Source: a virus. Taken from it: DNA of 49,551 nucleotides. The position numbers and the translations under genes were made by a program. Positions 3,393 to 49,551 of the stretch are shown piece by piece (positions within the stretch are counted from its first letter, which is position 1; each line of letters starts with the position of its first letter). Location: positions 1 through 49,551 of the IMG/VR virus record IMGVR_UViG_3300025764_000005; one strand, given 5' to 3'. The notes below the pieces were generated by a model that was not told the DNA's origin, did not search any database, and saw only the letters and a program-made list of their open reading frames with translations.

Positions 3393-3571
3393 GGATCGCT
3401 CTCATCGAAGCCCATCCAACCATGTTCCCCAGCGAGGAGTACATCGGCAAGGGCAAGCAGGCCAGGCTCGACATCGCCATTGATGCGACTGCCGTAAAGG
3501 GCAAGGCGGAGATGCCGACACCGAGGCCCCAGCAGATGCCGGGGCAAATCGGAATGGCCGACAAAGAGTGA
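3389..3571 (+). CDS. Hypothetical protein, 60 aa
   Basis: Starts in the previous stop (ATGA). Small basic protein with a Pro/Met-rich C-terminal half (MPTPRPQQMPGQIG) that is probably unstructured. The stop codon abuts a GC-rich hairpin (3571-3598). No family recognised. Confidence 0.55.
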   Translation: MRIALIEAHPTMFPSEEYIGKGKQARLDIAIDATAVKGKAEMPTPRPQQMPGQIGMADKE

Positions 3572-3598
3572 GGGCCGGGGGCGCAACCCCCCAGCCCT
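3571..3598 (+). terminator. GC-rich hairpin after a stop codon
   Basis: AGGGC (3571-3575) pairs with GCCCT (3594-3598) and GGGGG (3577-3581) pairs with CCCCC (3588-3592), with one C-A mismatch and a six-base loop. No T-run follows, so it may be a weak or U-less terminator, an RNA-stability hairpin, or a divider between transcripts. Confidence 0.4.
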
Positions 3599-3602
3599 CT
3601 GT

Positions 3603-3656
3603 CCACCCAGCCAAGAGCAGACAGTTTGAGAGTCTACACCCAGCCAAGAGGAGACA
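3603..3656 (+). repeat. Two tandem copies of the CACCCAGCCAAG leader
   Basis: CACCCAGCCAAGAGCAGACA (3604-3623) and CACCCAGCCAAGAGGAGACA (3637-3656) differ by one base and lie 13 bases apart. The second copy contains a proper GAGGAG ribosome binding site for the gene at 3659; the first has a C in the SD (GAGCAG) and no gene, so it may be a decayed start signal left after gene loss. Related leaders occur at 1040, 4877 and on the minus strand near 13346-13363. Confidence 0.7.
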
Positions 3657-3658
3657 CA

Positions 3659-3817
3659 ATGTTCAGGATTACCGTATACGCCGCCCTGCTGCTCGCCGCA
3701 GCCCTCGCGCTGCGCCAGCTTGACGGCAGCCTCCCGCAAGTCATCCCCCTCGCTTTCGCGCTAGTTGTCGTGCCGCTAGTGGCGCTTCACCTTCTCCTGA
3801 AGGACGTGACCTCGTGA
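3659..3817 (+). CDS. Small membrane protein, two TM segments, 52 aa
   Basis: ATG at 3659 directly follows the recurrent leader with GAGGAG. Two hydrophobic stretches (residues 4-19, and 29-47 with IPLAFALVVVPLVALHLLL) are separated by a short polar loop, so an inner-membrane hairpin topology is likely. Could be holin-like or a host-membrane modulator; nothing decides between these. Its stop overlaps the next start (GTGA). Confidence 0.6.
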   Translation: MFRITVYAALLLAAALALRQLDGSLPQVIPLAFALVVVPLVALHLLLKDVTS

Positions 3818-7259: not shown

Positions 7260-7506
7260 CGAATAGGCTCCTGATGTAGTCGTGGTACGAGGCTCCTGCC
7301 GTAGCAAGTTGACCCAGCACCCGGTGGTCGCCCTCGTGGGCGAGGTCGTGGTCCCTCCTGCACAGGGGCACCATCTCTAGCAAGCCATCCCCGGCACCCT
7401 TGCCCTTGCGCACTGGAAAGTGATGAGGATCACCAGACGGCCCGCCGCAGATGAGGCATGGCTGCCTCCGGGTCCAGTTCCGGTTAGCCCTATCCTGCGA
7501 GGTCAA
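7252..7506 (-). CDS. HNH endonuclease-like protein, 84 aa
   Basis: TTG start (TTGA overlap with the previous stop) six bases behind AGGAGG; this fits better than an upstream GTG without an SD. CLIC (residues 17-20), HH (28-29) and PLCRRDHDLAH (47-57) form the zinc-knuckle/HNH arrangement of short phage HNH nucleases that often accompany replication and recombination genes. A role in junction processing or DNA nicking is inferred. Confidence 0.7.
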   Translation of the reverse strand: MTSQDRANRNWTRRQPCLICGGPSGDPHHFPVRKGKGAGDGLLEMVPLCRRDHDLAHEGDHRVLGQLATAGASYHDYIRSLFDE

Positions 7507-9190: not shown

Positions 9191-10459
9191 TCACTCTTCG
9201 AAGCGGCAATATTTTGGGACCCAGGGCAATGAGACGATGCCAACGCGTCCGTGCCTGTTCTTAGCGACGTGAATATCCACTGACTTGCTTCCGCCGAAGT
9301 CATCCTTGTTGGGCTGAGACAACAGCCAAACTTGGTCGGCGTCCTGTTCGAGCGAGCCCGACTCACGGAGCTGGCTGAGCTTTGGCTTGCCGTCACCCAA
9401 GGGGGACTCACTCTCCCGGTTGAGCTGGCTCAGTGCCAATACGGGGCAGTGCAGCTCGCGAGCGAGAGCCTTCAGCTCTCTGGAGAAAGAAGACACCTCA
9501 AGGTAGCGACTCTCCGGCCTGCCCCCGTGAGTGAGGAGCTGGAGGTAGTCCACCACGATCAGCTTGACCTGCTTGCGGGCCGCTAGCTGCCGGGCGCGAC
9601 TCTTGAGTGACAGGAGGGTAAGCGAGGGGTTGTCGATGACCTCCATGTCCAGCGCCGTGACCGCATCGTGGCCCTGCATGAGCCGAGAGAGCTGCTCCGG
9701 CCCGAGGTTGCGAGAGCGCACGCTGGTAAGGCCAACGTTGGCGATGCTGCATAGCATCCTCTCGGTTAGCTCCGCCTTGCTCATCTCCAGGCTGAAGAAG
9801 GCCACGGTGCCGTTAGCTGCAACGTTGCGGGCGATGTTCAGAGCAAGAGAAGTCTTGCCAATGCCGGGCCTGGCCCCGATGATGATAAGGTTGCCGTTAT
9901 ACATACCGGTGGTCTGGCCATCGAGGGTCTTGAAACCAGTGCTCACGGTGTCGGGGGGCTTGCCCTCAAGGCACTCGTCTAAGATTTCCGAGGCCACGCT
10001 CTTTAGCGACTGCGTGTCGCTTGCCACGTTGGGGCGCAGCTTGTAGACTAGGGCCTCGGCCGCGTCCAGAAGGGTGTTGGGCTGCTCGGTGTGCCCGTGG
10101 CCCATCTCAACGATCTCGTACCCCGCCTTTATGAGGGCGCGCTGGGTGGAGGTCGTCTTGATGATGTTGGCGTACTGGGTGGCGTTGGTCGCCGATGGTA
10201 CATAGTCTGCCAGCGTGTGAATGTACTCACTCTGGGCGGGGAGCCGGGCACTGATGGTGACTGTATCCACGCCCTCAGTGTTGCTTACCCAGGCACCAAG
10301 GATGGAGGTGAAGATTTCCCTGTTGGTGATCTTGTAAAAGTCCTCCGCTTCCACCAGGTCGCTTACCGCACCTATGGCTGCGGGATTGACTAGCATGGCC
10401 CCCAAGATTGCCTGCTCTGCTCCAAGATCGAAGGGCGGGAGCTGGGTCGTGGGGGTCAA
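9191..10459 (-). CDS. dnaB: Replicative DNA helicase, DnaB family, 422 aa
   Basis: Unwinds DNA ahead of the phage fork as a hexamer. TTG start in the previous stop (TTGA). The N-terminal domain begins DLGAEQAILGAMLVNP, typical of DnaB. The RecA-like C-terminal domain has Walker A GARPGIGKT (195-203), the FFSLEMSK segment (221-228) and Walker B LIVVDYLQLL (300-309). ELKALARELHCPVLALSQLNR (H3-type region) and QDADQVWLL follow. Length matches phage DnaB (400-460 aa), so it looks complete. No primase or loader was recognised nearby, so host primase is probably recruited. Confidence 0.95.
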   Translation of the reverse strand: MTPTTQLPPFDLGAEQAILGAMLVNPAAIGAVSDLVEAEDFYKITNREIFTSILGAWVSNTEGVDTVTISARLPAQSEYIHTLADYVPSATNATQYANIIKTTSTQRALIKAGYEIVEMGHGHTEQPNTLLDAAEALVYKLRPNVASDTQSLKSVASEILDECLEGKPPDTVSTGFKTLDGQTTGMYNGNLIIIGARPGIGKTSLALNIARNVAANGTVAFFSLEMSKAELTERMLCSIANVGLTSVRSRNLGPEQLSRLMQGHDAVTALDMEVIDNPSLTLLSLKSRARQLAARKQVKLIVVDYLQLLTHGGRPESRYLEVSSFSRELKALARELHCPVLALSQLNRESESPLGDGKPKLSQLRESGSLEQDADQVWLLSQPNKDDFGGSKSVDIHVAKNRHGRVGIVSLPWVPKYCRFEE

Positions 10460-10743
10460 GCCTCGCCCCTATCGGCCCAGCGGTTGCAGGCATACCCAAG
10501 ATCGTTCCAGCGAGCATCGTGCCTACAGGAACATGCCGGATGCGACGTGTCCGCGTAGGCGACCGCCCCCTTGCTGACGCAGTTCTCGCACCGTCGCTCC
10601 CGCAGGGCTGCCAGCTCGGCCTCCAACCCCTCGACGCGATGCAGCAATTCCCACCGCATGGCGTCCGCGAGGCCGTGCAGCTCTCCGAGCGTCGTGCAGT
10701 CGTGGTGCTGTGAGTTGTAGACGTGTAGGCGTGAGTGAGTCAC
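10456..10743 (-). CDS. Coiled coil plus C-terminal Zn module, 95 aa
   Basis: GTG start in the previous stop. Residues 20-52 (LADAMRWELLHRVEGLEAEL) form a coiled coil with AELAALRERRCENC, almost the same junction as in the 5494 protein (AELAALREML...CGNC). Ends CRHDARWNDLGYACNRW. A member of the family at 5494, 7631 and 8841, all flanking replication genes. Confidence 0.7.
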   Translation of the reverse strand: MTHSRLHVYNSQHHDCTTLGELHGLADAMRWELLHRVEGLEAELAALRERRCENCVSKGAVAYADTSHPACSCRHDARWNDLGYACNRWADRGEA

Positions 10744-10886
10744 GATTCCCTCTCTATGTCGCAGCACTCGTAGGTGCCGTTGGGTTGCTTGCTGACGAGG
10801 ACGTGCGTGGCTCCGTCTGCCATGAGGTCAAGTACGGCCACGCCGGTGGCAACGCATGCGTCAGAGAGGCCGGTGATATCGCTCAC
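10740..10886 (-). CDS. Hypothetical protein, 48 aa
   Basis: Reads MSDITGLSDACVATGVAVLD from a GTG inside the nuclease stop (GTGA), and its own stop contains the next GTG. Looks like a small strand-helix-strand unit with four cysteines. Coupling on both sides makes it credible. Function unknown. Confidence 0.55.
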   Translation of the reverse strand: MSDITGLSDACVATGVAVLDLMADGATHVLVSKQPNGTYECCDIERES

Positions 10887-11797
10887 GATACGCCCAGTGG
10901 GTGCAGCATCCCCTCGGCGTTCTTCTCTCCCCACCGAGCCAGCTTCTCCACGTCGGCAGCCTTCTTCGCTTCCCAGCCGAAGACCTTGTCGAACTCGGCC
11001 CATGTGCTCTTGCTCATGTCGGGCTTGCAAGTGCCCGCATAGTTGCAATATCCACACTGCCAGTCGGGCTCGCAGCTTACGGACTTTCCGTAGCTACGGA
11101 GCTGCAAAACTTTGTCGAGCTGCGGGGGCAGGCACTCATCGGTACGGCCCATAAATGCCCCCTTGACGCGGGTCCGCGCTGCGTCCAACTCATCCATAAG
11201 CGAAACAGTCTCGGCCTCAACGTGGGGCACCTCGCACTCATTGGGCTCACCGGACCCGTCACGACTCACGTACCAGAGCAGTGGTGAGGCATCCAACCCG
11301 TACTCCTTCACCAGCTCCCAGTGGTAGGAGGATGCCTGGTGGACGTGGGGCACCTTGGGCAGTGTGTAGTTGCTGGCATTGCCCCGGTGCGTCTTCACCT
11401 CAATGATGCGGTAGTGACCGTCCAGTTCCACGATAAGGTCGGTACGCCCACCCCAGTTCTGACGTTCCGCAAAGGGCACCGGAGTCTGGTGGGAGATGAG
11501 ATCGCCTTTCCACATGAAGGCAGCGGTGAGCACGGCCTCGATATACTCAGCTACGTCGTACATGCGCTGATCGTTACGCTGCTTTTCGGGGGACTCGTAG
11601 TCCTTCGTGGTGGAGAGCAGGCGGTAACAGACCTGACGGGGGCACTTGCCGACATCTGTCGCATATAGACGGAAAGGGTCACGTTCTTTATCAACCTTGG
11701 GCTCAAGGAACACGTCGGTGAAACACTTCTGAGCCGAGGAGTCTCCACCCTGTCGGGCCTGAAGAAACTCGTCATAAATATCCGCTAGCTTTGTCAT
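10883..11797 (-). CDS. Cas4/RecB-like PD-(D/E)XK exonuclease with four-cysteine cluster, 304 aa
   Basis: ATG in the stop of the HNH gene. The nuclease core has GGRTDLIV (D120), IIEVKT (E133, K135) and the RecB-type QxxxY (Q154-Y158). CPRQ at residue 52 and C-terminal C248, C251, C257 (CGYCNYAGTC) match the Fe-S cysteine arrangement of Cas4/AddB-like nucleases. Such phage proteins trim DNA ends for recombination or replication. No recombinase (RecT/Erf) was recognised, so the partner may be the SSB at 12696. Confidence 0.8.
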   Translation of the reverse strand: MTKLADIYDEFLQARQGGDSSAQKCFTDVFLEPKVDKERDPFRLYATDVGKCPRQVCYRLLSTTKDYESPEKQRNDQRMYDVAEYIEAVLTAAFMWKGDLISHQTPVPFAERQNWGGRTDLIVELDGHYRIIEVKTHRGNASNYTLPKVPHVHQASSYHWELVKEYGLDASPLLWYVSRDGSGEPNECEVPHVEAETVSLMDELDAARTRVKGAFMGRTDECLPPQLDKVLQLRSYGKSVSCEPDWQCGYCNYAGTCKPDMSKSTWAEFDKVFGWEAKKAADVEKLARWGEKNAEGMLHPLGVS

Positions 11798-12216
11798 GCT
11801 GACACCCAGTACTTTCGATGTACGATTTCACTAACGTGCCCTTGGGATATCCCAAACCGAGCACCGACAACTCGCTGAAGTAGCCCTGATGCCACAAGCT
11901 CACGGATAGCGCGAACGTTTTCGATGGAGAGACGCGCTGTCCCACCGCGACCCTTCTCCTCCCTGTCTCTCACATTATCAGCCTGAGTCCCAAGGAATAG
12001 ATGGGACGGTTTCACGCATGTGGGATTATCGCAGCGGTGGAGGACACACATGCCGCTTGTGTCGCCGACAAACAACGCATAGGACACCCGGTGCGCAGCA
12101 GCATAAGCTCCGTCGACCCAGAGGCTACCGTACCTACCGCCAGCTAGGCCCGCGGTCCACTCCCAACAGTCGTCTCCCACAAGAATCTTGTCGGAGAACC
12201 TCTCAAGTAGCGTCAT
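11794..12216 (-). CDS. HNH homing-type endonuclease with C-terminal HTH, 140 aa
   Basis: ATGA-coupled on both sides. CWEWTAGLAGGRYG begins the fold; the active region is HRVSYALF...CVLHRCDNPTCVKPSHLFLG (key residues H42, H60, C62, C67, H72). The C-terminus (residues 95-135: IRELVASGLLQ...FGISQGHVSEIVHRKYW) is a helix-turn-helix resembling those on phage homing endonucleases. It sits inside the operon without disrupting coupling, so it may be domesticated or a free-standing mobile gene. Confidence 0.8.
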   Translation of the reverse strand: MTLLERFSDKILVGDDCWEWTAGLAGGRYGSLWVDGAYAAAHRVSYALFVGDTSGMCVLHRCDNPTCVKPSHLFLGTQADNVRDREEKGRGGTARLSIENVRAIRELVASGLLQRVVGARFGISQGHVSEIVHRKYWVSA

Positions 12217-12437
12217 CGCTTCTCCCTATGCGCACGGTAGTGCTGTGCGTGCGCAGCCTCGTGCATCGACTTGTACTTGGCCACCAGTAGGGCGAGGGCC
12301 AGGATGGCATCGTGGGCATCATCAGTAATTTCCCAGTACTGTTTGTCGCTGAACTCGTAGTCAATTGCCAAGTACGCGTCGAGTGCCTCGCACTTCACGC
12401 CCGCCGCCTTGAGGATGCCACTCAGGTCGGTGCTCAT
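12213..12437 (-). CDS. Hypothetical protein, 74 aa, paralogue of the gene at 40515
   Basis: ATG behind GGTGGAG. Contains ILKAAGVKCEALDAYL near the N-terminus and DAILALALLVAKYK near the end. The protein at 40515 has IIKAAGVECAEVEAL and DAAILALARLAAKYK, so these are paralogues in different operons. The pattern is a small helical domain. Function unknown. Confidence 0.65.
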   Translation of the reverse strand: MSTDLSGILKAAGVKCEALDAYLAIDYEFSDKQYWEITDDAHDAILALALLVAKYKSMHEAAHAQHYRAHREKR

Positions 12438-12562
12438 CGCTCCACCATCCACTGCCGCAATTTTTGGAGACCCTTCACCACGAGCACCACGACCACCACG
12501 ATGAGAGCGGCTGCAATCACTACCCCGGCTACGGCCTCGACGATAAGAAGGAGATCAATCAT
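12434..12562 (-). CDS. Single-TM membrane protein, 42 aa
   Basis: ATGA overlaps on both ends. Begins MIDLLLIVEAVAGVVIAAAL with a strongly hydrophobic Val-rich helix (residues 3-29), then a basic tail (KGLQKLRQWMVER). An N-out/C-in anchor is likely. Role unknown; a lysis or membrane-targeting factor is possible. Confidence 0.55.
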   Translation of the reverse strand: MIDLLLIVEAVAGVVIAAALIVVVVVLVVKGLQKLRQWMVER

Positions 12563-12696
12563 TTCTTGCCCCACTTTCCTTTGCGCTTCTTCTTGGTCTT
12601 TGGGAATGCTAGCGAATCGTCGGTGTAGTCCATAGCAGTTCCCTCCTTAATCTCCTTGGGGAACTTCTCCGGCAGCTTCTCGGGTATCTTCTTCAT
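12559..12696 (-). CDS. Lys-rich small protein, 45 aa
   Basis: Starts at the TGATG junction with the SSB gene. The sequence is rich in Lys/Pro/Glu (MKKIPEKLPEKFPKEIKEGT) and ends KTKKKRKGKWGKK. A second ATG at 12633, behind a strong AAGGAGGG, would give only the last 24 residues and may be the real start. The basic tail suggests nucleic-acid contact. Confidence 0.45.
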   Translation of the reverse strand: MKKIPEKLPEKFPKEIKEGTAMDYTDDSLAFPKTKKKRKGKWGKK

Positions 12697-13343
12697 CAGA
12701 ATGGAAACTCTGAGTCCTCGTCGGCCGAGGGTGCGGGCGTATCCGCAAGGCTTGTCACAGGAGCTTGGCCGAGAGGGCTTCCATTGTCTGCTTCAAGACC
12801 TGCCTGAAAGCTCGCATCGGGAGCCTGATCGGCCCACGCGAGCACCTTGTCGCACTCAGCGAGGAAGTCTTCGATGGTCGAGAAGGTACCGCCCGAACGC
12901 AGTGTAGCAACCGCAAGGGCCACTTCCTGCCGCTGAATCTGCACGGGCGTCCTGAACTGACCGTCCTTGCTGAAGCCACTGCTACCGCCGGTGCTGCTAC
13001 CAGTGCTGCTACCCGTGCTGCCGCCGCCACCACCGCCCGTGTACTTCTCTTTGGCGGGGAAGGTGTCAACCTCGCCGGGCTGAGCAGGCACGGCATCGTT
13101 GATGAACTTCAACATGGTTCCGGCGTATTTCGTGGACTCAACCACGTCGTAGCTTATCTTGATGCGAGCGCCGATGGTCATAATGGCGGCGCAGTTGACC
13201 TGACCCTGCTTGGCGTTGTAGCGCCACGGCGTCTGACTCTTGCAAGTAAGTATCACCTTGGTCGGAGGGTTCCCGCCCTGCGTGATCTGCACGTTCTCAA
13301 CGCTAATGACCGCTATCGCATTCTTGACGGGCTGAAAGTCCAT
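12696..13343 (-). CDS. ssb: Single-stranded DNA-binding protein, 215 aa
   Basis: Protects ssDNA and recruits replication partners. The N-terminal about 110 residues look like an OB-type beta barrel. A Gly/Ser-rich linker (residues 103-125) leads to a helical segment, and the protein ends with the acidic tip ADEDSEFPF, the usual SSB partner-binding tail (D/E-rich then PF). The OB part is not a standard bacterial SSB sequence, so identification rests mainly on the tail and context. The start is set by the recurrent CCCAGCCAAGGAG leader and a dedicated promoter (13408-13441). Confidence 0.75.
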   Translation of the reverse strand: MDFQPVKNAIAVISVENVQITQGGNPPTKVILTCKSQTPWRYNAKQGQVNCAAIMTIGARIKISYDVVESTKYAGTMLKFINDAVPAQPGEVDTFPAKEKYTGGGGGGSTGSSTGSSTGGSSGFSKDGQFRTPVQIQRQEVALAVATLRSGGTFSTIEDFLAECDKVLAWADQAPDASFQAGLEADNGSPLGQAPVTSLADTPAPSADEDSEFPF

Positions 13344-13364
13344 CTACGCTCCTTGGCTGGGGTT
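13344..13364 (-). repeat. Minus-strand copy of the CCCAGCCAAGGAG start-associated leader
   Basis: Read on the minus strand, CCCCAGCCAAGGAGCGTAG precedes the SSB ATG. It matches the rightward leaders at 1040, 3604, 3637 and 4877, so the element works on both strands as a start signal. Confidence 0.65.
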
Positions 13365-13365
13365 G

Positions 13366-13391
13366 GGAAAGCCCGCCGTAGCGGGCCTTCC
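13366..13391 (-). terminator. Hairpin in the SSB 5' leader (terminator or attenuator)
   Basis: GCGGGC (13381-13386) and GCCCGC (13371-13376) pair around a four-base loop, extended by GGAAG/CTTTCC with one mismatch. On the minus strand it is followed by TTTCCC. It lies after the holin-like gene but downstream of the SSB promoter's expected start, so it could end the upstream transcript or attenuate the SSB transcript. Confidence 0.55.
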
Positions 13392-13407
13392 GTTAGTCTT
13401 CAATAAC

Positions 13408-13441
13408 AGAGTATCACACAATTCAGCGTTTGTTACCCTCC
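13408..13441 (-). promoter_or_regulatory. Promoter of the GGAGGGTAR-N19 family, SSB operon
   Basis: On the minus strand: GGAGGGTAA (13441-13433), 19 bases ending TGTGA, then TACTCT (13413-13408). It matches four other sites at box, spacing and the GTGN before the hexamer. An overlapping GATACT two bases upstream could serve as an alternative -10. Drives SSB and the downstream replication genes. Confidence 0.6.
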
Positions 13442-13445
13442 GCTT

Positions 13446-13637
13446 TCAGTAAGTCGACTTTGCGATGGCGGCGCGGAAACTGATGCCGGTCAGGACGCCG
13501 ACGACCAGGGTGATGATCTGCACGTACACACTGTCCACAGAGACTACGCCGGCCGATGCCAGCACGCCGATGATGCCGAGGACGATGGTGCCGATTACGG
13601 ATTTCTTGCCGTCCAAAAATGCGATGATTTCATTCAT
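13446..13637 (-). CDS. Holin-like protein with two TM segments, 63 aa
   Basis: ATG at 13637 behind GAAGGGAGG. After MNEIIAFLDGKKS come two hydrophobic helices (residues 13-33 and 38-55) and a short polar end (RAAIAKSTY), the size and layout of small class II holins. The amidase at 15310 is in the same leftward operon, supporting a lysis role. It resembles small phage holins of Gram-positive hosts by general features only. Confidence 0.6.
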   Translation of the reverse strand: MNEIIAFLDGKKSVIGTIVLGIIGVLASAGVVSVDSVYVQIITLVVGVLTGISFRAAIAKSTY

Positions 13638-13947
13638 GTGAACCTCCCTTCTCTGTTTCATTGTTCCGTTCATCCCACCAAGCGGGGTTAGAGACCAGCA
13701 CCCCGTACAGAGCAACCTCCAGCGCCATGATCGTGTCGTGCTTGAGTTCCAGATACATAGATGCGTTGATGGCCTCAATAACCTCATGCAGAAGTACGGA
13801 CGCCTGAGTTTCCGGGTGCTGGTCACCGTCGATAGTGATGTCTTGGCGACAGTTGCAGCAGGCCCCCGTGGCATCGTCGCCCATGGGCTGGACGGTAACG
13901 CTATAGGTGCGGTCACATATCTTGAGGGTGGGAGGGATTGTGCTCAT
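13630..13947 (-). CDS. HExxE-motif phage protein (zincin-like), 105 aa
   Basis: ATG in the previous stop (ATGA), same start context (GGTGGAGCGATGAGCA) as the gene at 12213. ICDRTYSVTVQ is an N-terminal strand, CCNCRQDITID follows, and LLHEVIEAINASM is then followed by LKHDTIMALEVALYGVL. Many Gram-positive phages encode a protein with this build and LHE(I/V)(I/V)(H/E)AI, thought to be a small metalloprotease-like fold. Here the third ligand position is Glu, not His, so activity is uncertain. Confidence 0.6.
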   Translation of the reverse strand: MSTIPPTLKICDRTYSVTVQPMGDDATGACCNCRQDITIDGDQHPETQASVLLHEVIEAINASMYLELKHDTIMALEVALYGVLVSNPAWWDERNNETEKGGSHE

Positions 13948-14180
13948 CGCTCCACCCTCATCTCGTCGATGTGGGGGAACCACCAATACATAACTTCCAG
14001 GTTCGTCTCCACGTCATCGCGAAGCTCAGACCACAGCGACCACACCCGGACCCCGCCATCCTTGCGACGCAGCTTCACCACGTCGTCGTCACTGCCGAGC
14101 ACCTCGTTGCCGTCACGGAATATTTGTACGTTCCGCGTTCCAAACAGGCGGCGGCGAATGCGGGCTTCAAGGATCGTCAT
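13944..14180 (-). CDS. Hypothetical protein, 78 aa
   Basis: ATGA-coupled both ways. Beta-rich with many charged and aromatic residues (VQIFRDGNEVLGSDDD, VRVWSLWSELRDDVET). No family recognised. Confidence 0.65.
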   Translation of the reverse strand: MTILEARIRRRLFGTRNVQIFRDGNEVLGSDDDVVKLRRKDGGVRVWSLWSELRDDVETNLEVMYWWFPHIDEMRVER

Positions 14181-14329
14181 TGGGCGCTTCCCTCCTCCAC
14201 CAGTAAGACGAAGTCATACGTGCAGCCGCCCCACGCCAGCGTGGGCAGCCCACTAGCCCCACAAGTGCCCTGCGGGCCATCCTTCTGCTTGTAATGAGTG
14301 CAATTACAACACCGGCAAACATCTGCCAT
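14177..14329 (-). CDS. Cys-rich Zn-module protein, 50 aa
   Basis: ATG behind GGAAGGAC; the stop overlaps the next ATG. Translates MADVCRCCNCTHYKQKDGPQ then GTCGASG...GGCTYDF, a stand-alone CxxC...C...C module of the kind attached to coiled coils elsewhere in the window. Probably binds one zinc. Confidence 0.65.
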   Translation of the reverse strand: MADVCRCCNCTHYKQKDGPQGTCGASGLPTLAWGGCTYDFVLLVEEGSAQ

Positions 14330-14351
14330 CTACAGCCGTCCTTCCGCGCCC

Positions 14352-15122
14352 TTAAGCATTTACGAGTGTGGGATGTGTGCTCTCGGATTTGCGCGAGCGA
14401 CTCCACGCATCGCACTCGTTGCACTGCCATCTCTGGTAGGTGCAGGTTGCCGTGTGGGAGAAGCCCCTGCGCTGTAGGGATGTAGAGCTGCACCGTGGGC
14501 AGACATCCTCCACCGAGGATAGGCTCCCGAGGTTGGGATGAGAGACAATGAAGGGACGCAGCTCATCGTAGAGGTTGGACAACAGCACCACGTCTTGGTT
14601 GCAATACTTCTTCATCTTTTTCCACGCACCCATGTCGCCGTCTACGCAGTCGCGCCAGAGCTTGCCGTGTGTATCCTTTGGCTTGCTGCCAAGTGCGAGC
14701 TTCTCGCAGAGGTCGTTCAGGGAGTTGGACGCCATCCTGAAGTAGCGACGAGCAGCCAGGAGAGTGTCCACGCTCTTGTATGGAGAGGGCGGGCCAAGGT
14801 GATGGAAAAGGAACCTTGCAGTGGCTATGCGGTTGTCAAACTTGTTAGCGTTGTGTGCCACCACGATGTCCGCCTTGTTCATAAGCTCCCATAGCTTCTT
14901 GACTACCATGTAATCACTGTGGGGATCGTCCTCGTACTGGTCCCAGGAGTCGGGCTGGGCCACGTTGTGGACCTTCTTCTCGCCGTACCACTTATACGAG
15001 AAGCACATGATGTAGCTGTCTCTCTCCACGGATATAATGTTGGTATCCCAGATTTTATATGTCCATCCTAAAATCGGGGTCACTTCGAGGTCGTACATTA
15101 GGATTCGGGGCGTGCCCGTCAT
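14352..15122 (-). CDS. DEDDy 3'-5' exonuclease (RNase H fold) with C-terminal zinc ribbon, 256 aa
   Basis: ATG at 15122 is fixed by an ATGA overlap and AAAGGGAA upstream; an in-frame ATG 16 codons earlier lies inside the neighbour. Exo I YDLEVTP (D11, E13), Exo II VAHNANKFDNR (D96) and Exo III YCNQD (Y173, D177) make a full DEDDy site. The C-terminus has CPRC (208-211) and CNEC (234-237), a zinc ribbon likely for DNA contact. It resembles the exonuclease domain of DNA polymerases, but no polymerase domain is attached or found nearby. Probably proofreads or degrades DNA ends. Confidence 0.85.
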   Translation of the reverse strand: MTGTPRILMYDLEVTPILGWTYKIWDTNIISVERDSYIMCFSYKWYGEKKVHNVAQPDSWDQYEDDPHSDYMVVKKLWELMNKADIVVAHNANKFDNRIATARFLFHHLGPPSPYKSVDTLLAARRYFRMASNSLNDLCEKLALGSKPKDTHGKLWRDCVDGDMGAWKKMKKYCNQDVVLLSNLYDELRPFIVSHPNLGSLSSVEDVCPRCSSTSLQRRGFSHTATCTYQRWQCNECDAWSRSRKSESTHPTLVNA

Positions 15123-26105: not shown

Positions 26106-27326
26106 TCAGGTCGGCCAACTGAGCAGGGTCATGCAGCCGTGGGCCTTCAGTGGGTCGATGACTCGCATCGTGTACTCACCGAGGATGCGCTTCTTGTACG
26201 CATCCGTGCCGTCAGGCGTGCTGGTTGCCATGCCCCACTCCATCTGCATCCACGGACGGAAGGGAACAAGCTCGACCTTGTTCATGTTGAGCAGGAACAG
26301 GTTGCTCTTGAGGACCAGGGGATCAGGCACAATCTCCAGCTCGAAGCCTAGGTCAGACAGGAGGTAGGTCACATAGCGACCCCACGTCTTGTCCACGCGC
26401 TCGACGCGAACCTTGTCGGCACCGAAGCTAGAGATGACGCGAGCGTGAGCGGGATGCACGAAAATCTTGTACGTCTCGCTGCGGTCGCAGCCGTTCGCGA
26501 GGATGTTCTCGCAGAGCTTATTGATGCCGTCTTCGGTGACTGCGGTGGAAGCGTAGTCACAGTTGCCGCCCGCCTGTGCGAGCGCCTGAAGGACGCCCTT
26601 GGTGGTGCGAATGTTGGCATCCGTACCGGCGGGGTTCGCCGGAGCCTGAGCACCGTAGAGAATGAAGGCGCTGAGGTCGTTCTTCAGCTCAATCATGCGG
26701 TCCTCGTACTGACGCTGCATGTTGTCCGCAGCGATCAGGGGACGACGGGCCATCTCCGTGCCGGTCACGGTCAGATAGAAGTCTAGGATGCTGGTGTAGT
26801 TGGAGTCCAGCACGGTCGGCTTGTACTTGTTGACGCTAGGGCCGGAACCTTCCTCAACGCCCGTGAAGATGACTTCATAGGCAGAGACCGTACCGTGGGT
26901 GGTAAAACCCGTACCGGAGTTGTTGGCCCCGTAGTCACGGTAGAGGGTGAGCACGTCGCCGGAAATGGCGGTAACTAGCATGAGTTCGTCAACCTTGTAG
27001 GTGCCGATGCCGGTAGCCTTGCTGGCGTTGCGGAGAATCGCACCGACCTTGACGGTCGCACCCAGGCCGGAGCCGAGAGCCAAATCCGTGGCGCTGCCGG
27101 AGTTGTGGATCGTGGTGCTGGACGAGACACCCTGGACGGTACGAGCGTTGGTCTGAGCGGAAACCCACTCAATCTTCGGCTCGTCGGTCTGAGCGCCGAC
27201 CTTTACTGAATCGAGCATCTGCGACTTAGCGCAGAGCATCGGGTGAAGCACGCCGTCAACCTGACGGCCTTCGGTACCGGAAGTTCTGTCCCAGGTTGCA
27301 GTCGGGACTACAGCGGGCCATGCCAT
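26106..27326 (-). CDS. Major capsid protein, 406 aa
   Basis: Builds the icosahedral shell (HK97 fold expected). Long strand-rich N-terminal part, then a helical spine (GTEMARRPLIAADNMQRQYE, about 195-215) and a C-terminal beta domain ending GEYTMRVIDPLKAHGCM. This profile, and the DPLVLKSNLFLLN...VELVPFRP segment, recall the SU10/DUF5309 capsid family; that name is a recollection, not a search. It follows the scaffold gene and has its own promoter and a structured leader, as expected for the most abundant product. Confidence 0.8.
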   Translation of the reverse strand: MAWPAVVPTATWDRTSGTEGRQVDGVLHPMLCAKSQMLDSVKVGAQTDEPKIEWVSAQTNARTVQGVSSSTTIHNSGSATDLALGSGLGATVKVGAILRNASKATGIGTYKVDELMLVTAISGDVLTLYRDYGANNSGTGFTTHGTVSAYEVIFTGVEEGSGPSVNKYKPTVLDSNYTSILDFYLTVTGTEMARRPLIAADNMQRQYEDRMIELKNDLSAFILYGAQAPANPAGTDANIRTTKGVLQALAQAGGNCDYASTAVTEDGINKLCENILANGCDRSETYKIFVHPAHARVISSFGADKVRVERVDKTWGRYVTYLLSDLGFELEIVPDPLVLKSNLFLLNMNKVELVPFRPWMQMEWGMATSTPDGTDAYKKRILGEYTMRVIDPLKAHGCMTLLSWPT

Positions 27327-27331
27327 AAAGC

Positions 27332-27403
27332 ATCGCCTCCTTCGTTAGTGGTTGAGTTGGTATGCTCTTGAAAGCGACTCAGCCCTGAACGCCAGGAGGC
27401 GAT
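27332..27403 (-). promoter_or_regulatory. Capsid leader: complement that can hide the ribosome binding site
   Basis: In the mRNA, ATCGCCTCCT (from 27403-27394) is a perfect 10-base complement of AGGAGGCGAT (from 27341-27332), the SD of the capsid gene. TGAGT/ACTCA can pair in between. The leader is about 150 nt from the promoter to the ATG. Folding would block initiation, so translation may be switched by a protein, by the ribosome, or by RNA processing. Confidence 0.55.
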
Positions 27404-27479
27404 TCGGCTTATGTAATGTTACTCAAGAATGGACCGTCATTGAGAGAACAATTACTTCGTCGTATGGAACTCTTACCTT

Positions 27480-40514: not shown

Positions 40515-40826
40515 TTAGCTCAGTTCATCCCAGCGCTGGTCAAGTTCGGAAAACCACTCATTTTGACTTTCGGGAAAGGATGGAAGTTCGTCCTGTGGGG
40601 GGACCATCTCCCAAGCCTCGCCAACTTGCCACTTGTACTTGGCCGCGAGTCGGGCGAGGGCGAGGATGGCGGCGTCGTATGGCGGTTGCCGAGAATAGAC
40701 CTTGATGTCCACGGTCCCGAACTCGGGACTCCTGATGGGGACAATCAGCGGCTCCTCAAACAGCGCTTCCACCTCCGCGCACTCCACGCCCGCCGCCTTG
40801 ATGATGTCTCTCGGGTCGTCAGTCAT
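40515..40826 (-). CDS. Hypothetical protein, 103 aa, paralogue of the gene at 12213
   Basis: ATG at 40826 behind GGAGGAAGAG. DIIKAAGVECAEVEALF and DAAILALARLAAKYKWQ match the 74-aa protein at 12213 (ILKAAGVKCEALDAYL, DAILALALLVAKYK). Between them this copy has an extra beta-rich insert. An acidic, aromatic C-terminus (SEWFSELDQRWDELS) is specific to this one. It is an odd early-type gene inside the packaging block. Confidence 0.65.
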   Translation of the reverse strand: MTDDPRDIIKAAGVECAEVEALFEEPLIVPIRSPEFGTVDIKVYSRQPPYDAAILALARLAAKYKWQVGEAWEMVPPQDELPSFPESQNEWFSELDQRWDELS

Positions 40827-40839
40827 CACTCTTCCTCCA

Positions 40840-48252: not shown

Positions 48253-48293
48253 CACAGGTGGAGGGTAGCGGCAACAGAGACCTGTGTTATACT
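48253..48293 (+). promoter_or_regulatory. Rightward promoter of the GGAGGGTAG-N19 family, with flanking inverted repeat
   Basis: GGAGGGTAG (48260-48268), 19 bases ending CCTGTGT, then TATACT (48288-48293). CACAGGT (48253-48259) and ACCTGTG (48280-48286) form a 7-bp inverted repeat around the box. Drives the 35-aa gene and the structured stretch behind it, divergent from the integrase. Confidence 0.7.
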
Positions 48294-48325: not shown

Positions 48326-48433
48326 ATGGCGGCCAAAAAGGGCGCGACGAAGAAGGGTGTGAACCCATTCGCCAAGAAGGGTGCGAAGAAGACGATTACG
48401 TGTCCGAAATGCGGGGCAACGATTACCGTCTGA
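48326..48433 (+). CDS. Lys-rich Zn-knuckle protein, 35 aa
   Basis: ATG four bases behind GAGGAGGG, with a strong promoter 30 bases upstream. Begins MAAKKGATKKGVNPFAKKGA and ends TITCPKCGATITV. A basic tail plus one CPKC points to nucleic-acid binding, perhaps as a dimer sharing a metal. It is the only protein gene between this promoter and the structured stretch 48438-48723. Confidence 0.6.
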   Translation: MAAKKGATKKGVNPFAKKGAKKTITCPKCGATITV

Positions 48434-48437
48434 TTCT

Positions 48438-48723
48438 TTGCTCGGGAGTGCCCGCTACAGAGTCGAGCAATCAGGATGCGGGACGAACGGTTCGGAGGTG
48501 GGGCCGAGCCAGCAATGTGGGCGCCTAGCAGATCACTTGGGCCAGCGATATTGGTGGCTAGGCGAGGGCGGGTAAGCTGGCTCTGGTGTCTCGGCGGGGC
48601 CGAAGGACGCTGGATGGGAGCCCGCCCACTTTCTATCCGGGGCGGCTCTGCGGCATATAGGGTCAGACGCACTGATACTGCGTCACTGGTCGATTCGGCC
48701 GGACGACCTCCGCGAGCCGCCCC
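48438..48723 (+). ncRNA. Highly structured stretch, candidate non-coding RNA
   Basis: Starts 4 bases after the 35-aa gene. Helices in order: TTGCTC/GAGCAA (48438-48443, 48465-48470) with inner GGG-AGTG-CCC; GAGCCAGC/GCTGGCTC (48506-48513, 48576-48583) enclosing CGCCTAGC/GCTAGGCG (48522-48529, 48557-48564); TCGGC-GGG-GCCGA (48591-48603); GGATGGG...CCCA...ATCC (48612-48638). Last is a three-way junction closed by GGGGCGGCTC-T-GCGG (48639-48653) with CCGC-GAGCCGCCCC (48710-48723), 14 bp with one bulge, holding GACGCA-CTGATAC-TGCGTC and GGTCG/CGACC. No known RNA family was recognised. Confidence 0.5.
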
Positions 48724-48784: not shown

Positions 48785-49225
48785 TCACGAGGGTACGGGT
48801 AGCTTCGAGGCACTTTCTGCGCTCATCGCGCTACCTTTTGTGACGCCCTCGCCTGCCACTATAGTAGCGCCTTCGGCGGCAGCCGGAGCCCGGCTGCTAA
48901 CCTCCGGGGGAGTAGCCTTAGCCCGGACCACCCCCCTTCTCGCCATCCCGGCACAACTCATGCTGCAATACTTCGAGCCCTGTCTGACCTGCTTCACGGT
49001 GAGTTTGTTGGGGCAACCCTCCCTCGCACACAGCGTGGCACTGTAGGGACCCCTATGCAGGGTTTGGACAACTTTGGACTCTTTGGACTCGACTTTGGAC
49101 CCGATTGGACTCAAAGCCGCCGCACTTATCGGTAACTGCCGAGGATTCGGAACGCCCGACAGGACGAGCAACGCCGCCCGTACCTCTTCCGCCGACCCCG
49201 TGAGATGGATAGTCACTTGCTCCAT
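48785..49225 (-). CDS. Zinc-finger protein, 146 aa
   Basis: ATG behind GAGGAGG. The N-terminus MEQVTIHLTGSAEEVRAALL is a strand-helix unit. CAREGCPNKL...SKYCSMSCAG (C..C...C..C at about residues 67-91) resembles small treble-clef fingers with a CS.SC end. The C-terminal 55 residues are Ala/Pro/Ser-rich and flexible. A DNA-binding regulator at the genome edge is possible; no classical repressor was found elsewhere. Confidence 0.65.
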   Translation of the reverse strand: MEQVTIHLTGSAEEVRAALLVLSGVPNPRQLPISAAALSPIGSKVESKESKVVQTLHRGPYSATLCAREGCPNKLTVKQVRQGSKYCSMSCAGMARRGVVRAKATPPEVSSRAPAAAEGATIVAGEGVTKGSAMSAESASKLPVPS

Positions 49226-49551
49226 GCTACCTCCTCTAGCCTCCGAGTCACCCTACCACGAAAAAATATTCTCAGAAAGAGGCACCCACTCTACCACAGA
49301 GTGCTCCTAAAGAGTAGGGGGGGGTCTATGAGCAAAGAGCGATATGTCCGGCGCTGTGGCTGCATGTCCGGGGCTGTGGCAGTCTCCGGCAAAAGCAAGC
49401 TCCTTGGCGCTGTGGCATTGCCTATATGTTTCCTACTGTACTCTCGCTCCTCCCCACTAAGTCACCCGGCCTCTATGTGACTACATATGTTGTCTGATCA
49501 TGCGTGCGTGCGCTGCTGCGTCGTTGCGCCAGCCCTCCCCCTCCCCCTCCC
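49226..49551. other. Right-end non-coding region with 20-bp repeats and C-rich tip
   Basis: ATGTCCGG(C/G)GCTGTGGC occurs at 49344-49360 and 49364-49380 (period 20), and GGCGCTGTGGC again at 49406-49416. CACTCT-ACCAC-AGAGTG (49287-49303) is a perfect hairpin. The last bases are a CCCTCCCC-type pyrimidine tract. A short open frame at 49328-49480 is not convincing. Confidence 0.5.

Follow-up and report, generated by a model that had tools for sequence, protein, structure and literature searches.

A probable new phage non-coding RNA with a conserved core and changing gene neighbours

Small RNAs encoded by phages, and small RNAs derived from the 3′ untranslated regions of bacterial transcripts, are known as a kind. 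GOLLD and ROOL are structured RNAs encoded by phages; they have no assigned role and are often found near tRNA genes or tRNA islands, and many GOLLD RNAs are longer than 800 nt (PMC12286853). Theta ribozymes are HDV-like and lie at most 5 nt from phage tRNAs (PMC10879173). The put RNA of phage HK022, of about 70 nt and with two stem-loops, acts on the RNA polymerase that transcribes it (PMC9378689). Here, we analyzed a virus record of 49,551 bases, the whole of which we call the window. A first-pass annotation of the letters alone had drawn attention to positions 48438 to 48723 as a long structured stretch and possible phage non-coding RNA. Our results indicate that this is probably a genuine new non-coding RNA outside the known families: a homologue with compensating changes was found in a related phage, although what is conserved is mainly the first 75 nt and two hairpins and not the whole stretch.

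A variable slot beside the integrase gene

The stretch (48438-48723) is bounded by two stop codons, that of a 35-aa gene on the plus strand and that of a convergent 146-aa gene on the minus strand. Upstream of it, and divergent from the transcript that would carry the RNA, lies a gene for a tyrosine-family phage integrase (47094-48239, minus strand; Pfam PF00589, E = 7.5 × 10−26; PHROG integrase). An extended −10 promoter box, TGTTATACT (48285-48293, plus strand), is kept at the same place in the relatives L006, L007 and L013, with the consensus TG(G/T)TA(T/G)A(A/C)T. A strong promoter had been proposed at 48260-48293; what lies there is this extended −10 box, and a promoter scan found neither a canonical −35 element nor a canonical sigma-70 pair. 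The transcript carrying the 35-aa gene and the RNA presumably starts at this box. The 35-aa zinc-ribbon gene (MAAKKGATKKGVNPFAKKGAKKTITCPKCGATITV; 48326-48433, plus strand) is genuine, as relatives have it too: its homologues in L006, L007 and L013 have NPFAKK...CPxCG in common. The slot is closed by the convergent 146-aa zinc-finger gene (48785-49225, minus strand), which also has homologues in these three relatives.

The gene order (integrase, promoter, small zinc-ribbon gene, slot, convergent zinc-finger gene) is kept in L006 and L007, which came, with others, from relatives of the terminase, and in L013, which came from relatives of the convergent 146-aa gene. The window's RNA is absent from the slot of all three relatives with this order. 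The slot is occupied there by other small genes and then a terminator, which in L007 and L013 takes the standard form of a hairpin and a U run; in L006 the slot ends in a GC-rich hairpin (GGGGCGGUUCCGA/UCGGGGCCGCCCC). The slot is thus variable in content, and the RNA is optional cargo. In L001 to L004, the integrases are 78 to 94% identical to that of the window, and the sequence upstream of them is unrelated.

Several other features of the window and its relatives were recorded. A 5.87-kb segment (9193-15060) is 99.5% identical to G003, the contig of L003, while the remainder has diverged, and the integrase module is placed elsewhere in G003, indicating strong mosaicism. A near-repeat at window 12389-12446 and 40765-40830 (minus strand), at G012 7308-7373 and at G003 2619-2675 encodes a recurring N-terminal peptide, roughly DPRDILKAAGVECAEVEA, which starts several different small phage ORFs. 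A C/T-rich tract (49530-49551) closes the record, and the record's end joined to its start (1-60) resembles a continuous stretch of L006 (3620-3430); a circular or permuted genome with a break at this tract is therefore possible. The motif GGSGCTGTGGC occurs three times at 49350-49416, with similar copies at L006 3660-3710, possibly marking a replication or packaging region. In L006, a repeated promoter-like sequence, approximately GACTCATGGTATAATAAAGT, precedes small accessory genes (5920-5890, 5385-5355 and 4485-4455, minus strand).

A homologous copy and its compensating changes

A degenerate DNA search, in which patterns back-translated from a minus frame served as a device only, recovered two contigs, L015 and L016. 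Since L015 is the L016 sequence cut by a contig end, the comparison involves two independent sequences, those of the window and of L016. Positions 48439-48513 of the window (plus strand), the 75-nt conserved core, match L016 5048-4973 (minus strand) with 94.7% identity over 76 nt (E = 5.5 × 10−27). The first 47 nt of the core are identical, and the 75 aligned positions differ by three substitutions and one inserted base. In the window the core begins 5 nt past the stop codon of the 35-aa gene; the L016 copy starts 9 nt past the CCA of a gene for tRNA-Ile(GAT). Next after the L016 copy come a GC-rich hairpin and two ORFs in the same direction, one for a zinc-finger protein and then one for a small membrane protein. 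RNA and upstream gene run in the same direction in both phages, and the sequences on either side of the RNA lack homology between them. A larger RNA around the L016 tRNA was considered and rejected, as the 237 nt preceding the tRNA do not surpass their shuffles in folding (z = +0.4). As related mosaics, the two phages have other common pieces, which are about 70 to 95% identical and occur in shuffled order. Because short patches of 90 to 95% identity are found elsewhere between these mosaic phages, the identity of the core alone could reflect recent exchange.

In hairpin P2 (48489-48495 with 48504-48510, plus strand; 7 bp), the loop AGGUGGGG is enclosed by GGUUCGG and CCGAGCC in the window and by GGUUCGC and GCGGGCC in L016. 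All three core substitutions lie in P2 and retain pairing, as one double change (G-C to C-G) and one compatible change (U-A to U-G). When sets of three substitutions were placed at random on the window core, 17 of 40,001 reproduced this pattern, defined as all three falling within a helix of at least 6 bp with pairing kept and a double change. Two further helices are invariant in both sequences: S1 (UGCUCG/CGAGCA; 48439-48444 with 48464-48469) and S2 (GUGCCCGC/GCGGGACG; 48451-48455 with 48478-48482), both on the plus strand. The first half of the core may form a pseudoknot of S1 and S2 or nested hairpins. The modeled energies are equivocal and the sequences identical here, and we regard S2 as a probable pseudoknot helix; the C inserted in L016, which would extend S2 by one pair, is a weak hint in its favor. 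A three-hairpin consensus fold closed by GCU/AGC raised the idea of a tRNA-like cloverleaf, which was rejected, as ARAGORN and the Rfam tRNA model both gave negative results for a tRNA or tmRNA identity of the RNA.

The core is followed by a variable insert (48514-48582, plus strand) that has no clear alignment in L016, where it is much shorter. The inner 7-8-bp arms noticed in the first-pass annotation fall within this insert. The complementary sequence for the nested 8+8-bp arms described at 48506-48583 exists, but other pairings compete with it and the arms are absent from the minimum-energy fold. Hairpin P4 (48583-48613, plus strand; CUGGU GUC UCGGC [GGG] GCCGA AG GAC GCUGG, the AG bulge being kept) has a tip, CUCGGCNGGGCCGAAGG, that is identical in L016 at 16 of 17 positions, whereas the sequences past the core have otherwise diverged. 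Its eight outer pairs show five double changes and no breaks. Random flanks of the same composition yield a comparable outer helix in about 2% of cases; P4 therefore backs P2 and does not stand alone.

At the 3′ end is a GC-rich hairpin (48639-48723, plus strand), whose outer stem is also present in L016 and L006. The 14-bp stem described earlier was confirmed in a different form, in which 10 perfect pairs are followed by a one-base bulge and 4 further pairs and the whole surrounds two inner hairpins. The ten pairs are retained in L016; two of them have become U-G by a change on one side and none has changed on both sides, so compensation in this stem, on which the earlier proposal had been made to depend, is weak. 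The end hairpin is terminator-like; it is followed by AUUCUAG instead of a U run, and a terminator scan was negative. The alignments of P4 and the end hairpin were set by hand from the structures, and MAFFT shifts P4 slightly.

Between the two independent sequences, and with P4 and the end hairpin aligned by hand, the compared helices contain six double changes, three one-sided changes and no breaking change. Read as plus-strand RNA, P1, P2, P4 and the end hairpin pair in 72 of 72 cells, compared to 64 of 72 for the minus strand, indicating that in both phages the RNA has the orientation of its upstream gene. For such pair counts with two sequences a shuffle control is uninformative, and a control with slid helices was clear. 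Covariation of this type, in which changes between homologues compensate for each other, is what is generally looked for in a conserved structured non-coding RNA. With just two independent sequences to draw on, we consider it probable that the RNA is conserved; the function proposed below is an inference.

Folding energy, coding character and distribution

The stretch 48438-48723 folds on the plus strand with −140.1 kcal/mol, compared to −125.6 ± 5.4 kcal/mol for dinucleotide shuffles (z = −2.71; 1 of 200 shuffles equally good); on the minus strand, the z score is −2.11. The comparison with shuffled controls that the first-pass annotation had proposed thus came out modestly in its favor. The energy ranks 9th among the 344 plus-strand 286-nt segments of the whole genome, however, which tempers the claim of a long stretch with many helices visible by eye. 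Such helices alone are no more than chance plus selection gives: perfect 10-bp inverted repeats number 5 in the stretch and 2 to 11 in its shuffles, and are no commoner. When the full length was folded, P4 and the end hairpin came out as nearly certain and P2 as competing with its neighbors; taken alone, the core does not exceed shuffles in folding stability (z = +0.9). The folding energy is good but not outstanding for this genome and alone would not justify the claim.

Strong folds were also seen at other places in the window. Three strong hairpins cluster at 3520-3660 (minus strand; z = −5.0 relative to shuffles), clearly stronger than the RNA stretch. The most stable 286-nt plus-strand segment of the genome (25844-26129; z = −5.5) lies across the end of the gene for the major capsid protein (26106-27326, minus strand) and the preceding gap. 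A long imperfect hairpin (27310-27440; z = −3.3, plus strand), perhaps a leader or terminator structure, stands immediately upstream of where this gene starts.

No notable open frame had been reported for the stretch, and the 84-aa plus frame and 120-aa minus frame within it indeed have no coding character. Their codon scores are −0.25 and −0.07, respectively, compared to +0.09 to +0.28 for the long genes of the phage, a measure that is not decisive for small genes, as even the conserved 146-aa gene has a score of −0.05. A protein-coding reading was rejected on these scores together with the one-base indel in the conserved block.

Exact-loop patterns searched in IMG/VR found, beyond chance matches, only the L015 and L016 contigs; searches of the species-genome collection produced chance matches alone, and those of annotated phages and plasmids produced none. 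Pattern matches lacking the RNA (all those in IMG/VR other than L015 and L016, those in six bacterial genomes, and L056 and L057) were judged to be chance. A covariance model matched 2 of 12 related virus records, namely, those of L015 and L016. Only close relatives are within reach of these searches, and a wider distribution is possible. Neither the terminase nor the helicase pointed to a host. Against Rfam 15, the window RNA matched no family at gathering scores and none at E values up to 10, and L016 gave only its tRNA and one chance match. In a search for antisense targets, exact complements of 12 to 15 nt were absent outside the RNA, save for one 12-nt match in G012.

Possible roles and relation to known phage RNAs

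The reading we tentatively favor, with a probability of about 0.48, is that 48439-48723 (plus strand) specifies a released phage RNA acting in trans and composed of the core, the variable insert, P4 and the end hairpin. The RNA would form the tail of a longer transcript. In the window, this transcript would be driven by the extended −10 promoter at 48285 and encode the 35-aa protein first; in L016 it would be the tRNA-Ile transcript, with the RNA behind the tRNA. Processing past the upstream gene could then release it, through tRNA 3′ maturation in L016 and through mRNA cleavage or decay in the window. The structured core and the 3′ hairpin would shield its ends and, as a small RNA of the phage, it might bind a protein or another RNA. 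Its size is best read as that of a cassette of 160 to 290 nt with its own 3′ hairpin. Both neighbors differ while the RNA is kept, suggesting that it most likely acts in trans; likewise, a core, P4 and end hairpin kept among changed neighbors fit a self-contained product better than a regulator of a single neighbor. Against this reading, the fold energy is ordinary, S1 and S2 are invariant, and relatives with the same gene order do without the RNA.

The main rival, which we consider rather unlikely, is a cis-acting transcription element: the core might act on its own RNA polymerase, as put RNA does, or the whole might be an attenuator in which the end hairpin serves as terminator and sets the amount of transcription reaching genes further on. 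The core of about 75 nt matches put RNA in size (about 70 nt with two stem-loops; PMC9378689), strong hairpins follow it, and co-directional genes lie past the end hairpin in L016. In the window, however, the next gene is convergent (48785-49225, minus strand) and no plus-strand gene occurs for more than 800 bp; moreover, the RNA does not stand at the head of a long operon and matches no known element in sequence. It is unlikely that the RNA is a 3′-end element, that is, a terminator and stabilizing structure for the carrier transcript (the tRNA or the 35-aa mRNA) with no separate product. Such an element would explain the start 5 nt past a stop codon or 9 nt past a tRNA CCA, the same end-hairpin stem in the L006 slot and the ordinary terminators there in L007 and L013. 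Yet a terminator needs no identical 47-nt core with conserved loops, the end hairpin has no U run, and a simple hairpin suffices in the relatives.

Two further explanations dispense with a functional RNA. One is a recently exchanged intergenic patch with chance helices and no function. This is compatible with the ordinary fold rank, the commonness of mosaic patches and the other sequences that relatives carry in the slot, but every change in the compared helices keeps pairing, and P4 and the end hairpin are common to both phages despite diverged surroundings, making it very unlikely. The other, which we find the least credible, is a DNA element such as an attachment site or a replication or packaging hairpin. 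The integrase gene adjoins the stretch in the window and inverted repeats also form in DNA; no integrase adjoins the RNA in L016, however, the element is absent from phages whose integrase is nearly the same, and the plus-strand helices tolerate G-U but not A-C. Apart from these rivals, the core could be the first known example of a new functional class among phage RNAs, a cassette moving between transcripts (for example, a self-processing or RNA-polymerase-modifying RNA with tRNA and small-gene transcripts as carriers), although we regard this as a long shot. Phage genomes are tightly packed, and a conserved non-coding cassette with changing neighbors and a kept fold is likely to be useful. 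Phage RNAs of a similar sort have proved to be cages, ribozymes, antiterminators and regulators, and two aligned sequences and a helix list now exist for this one.

The likeness to GOLLD suggested in the first-pass annotation found no support: covariance models for GOLLD, ROOL and other Rfam classes were negative, and at 160 to 290 nt the RNA has at most about a third of the length of GOLLD. In place of those architectures, we find two conserved hairpins, a probable pseudoknot and an end hairpin. As for the proximity to tRNA genes typical of GOLLD and ROOL, a tRNA-Ile gene adjoins the RNA in L016 only, and there is no tRNA anywhere in the window. Like theta ribozymes, the L016 copy is a compact RNA immediately downstream of a phage tRNA gene; unlike them, it starts 9 nt past the tRNA, and the RNA is also found after a protein gene. 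An HDV-like ribozyme, a kind defined by a nested double pseudoknot (P1-P2-P3-P4) with a catalytic C in J4/2, was rejected, since a home-made and not exhaustive topology scan found no nested double pseudoknot at homologous positions; the sole candidate common to both sequences has the 3′ strand of its P2 at non-homologous sites and no P4.

The 75-nt core described here is close to put RNA in size, and both have a place in an accessory or early transcript; of two stem-loops in the core, P2 is supported and the first is ambiguous. Whereas put RNA lies near early promoters, ahead of the operon that it serves, this RNA would be the tail of a short transcript, which in the window carries one gene and faces a convergent gene, and no sequence relation to put RNA was shown. 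Compared to phage and 3′-UTR-derived small RNAs, it differs in its unusually conserved structured core and in its end without a canonical U-run terminator, and it resembles them as a short phage transcript with its own 3′ hairpin, encoded in an accessory region.
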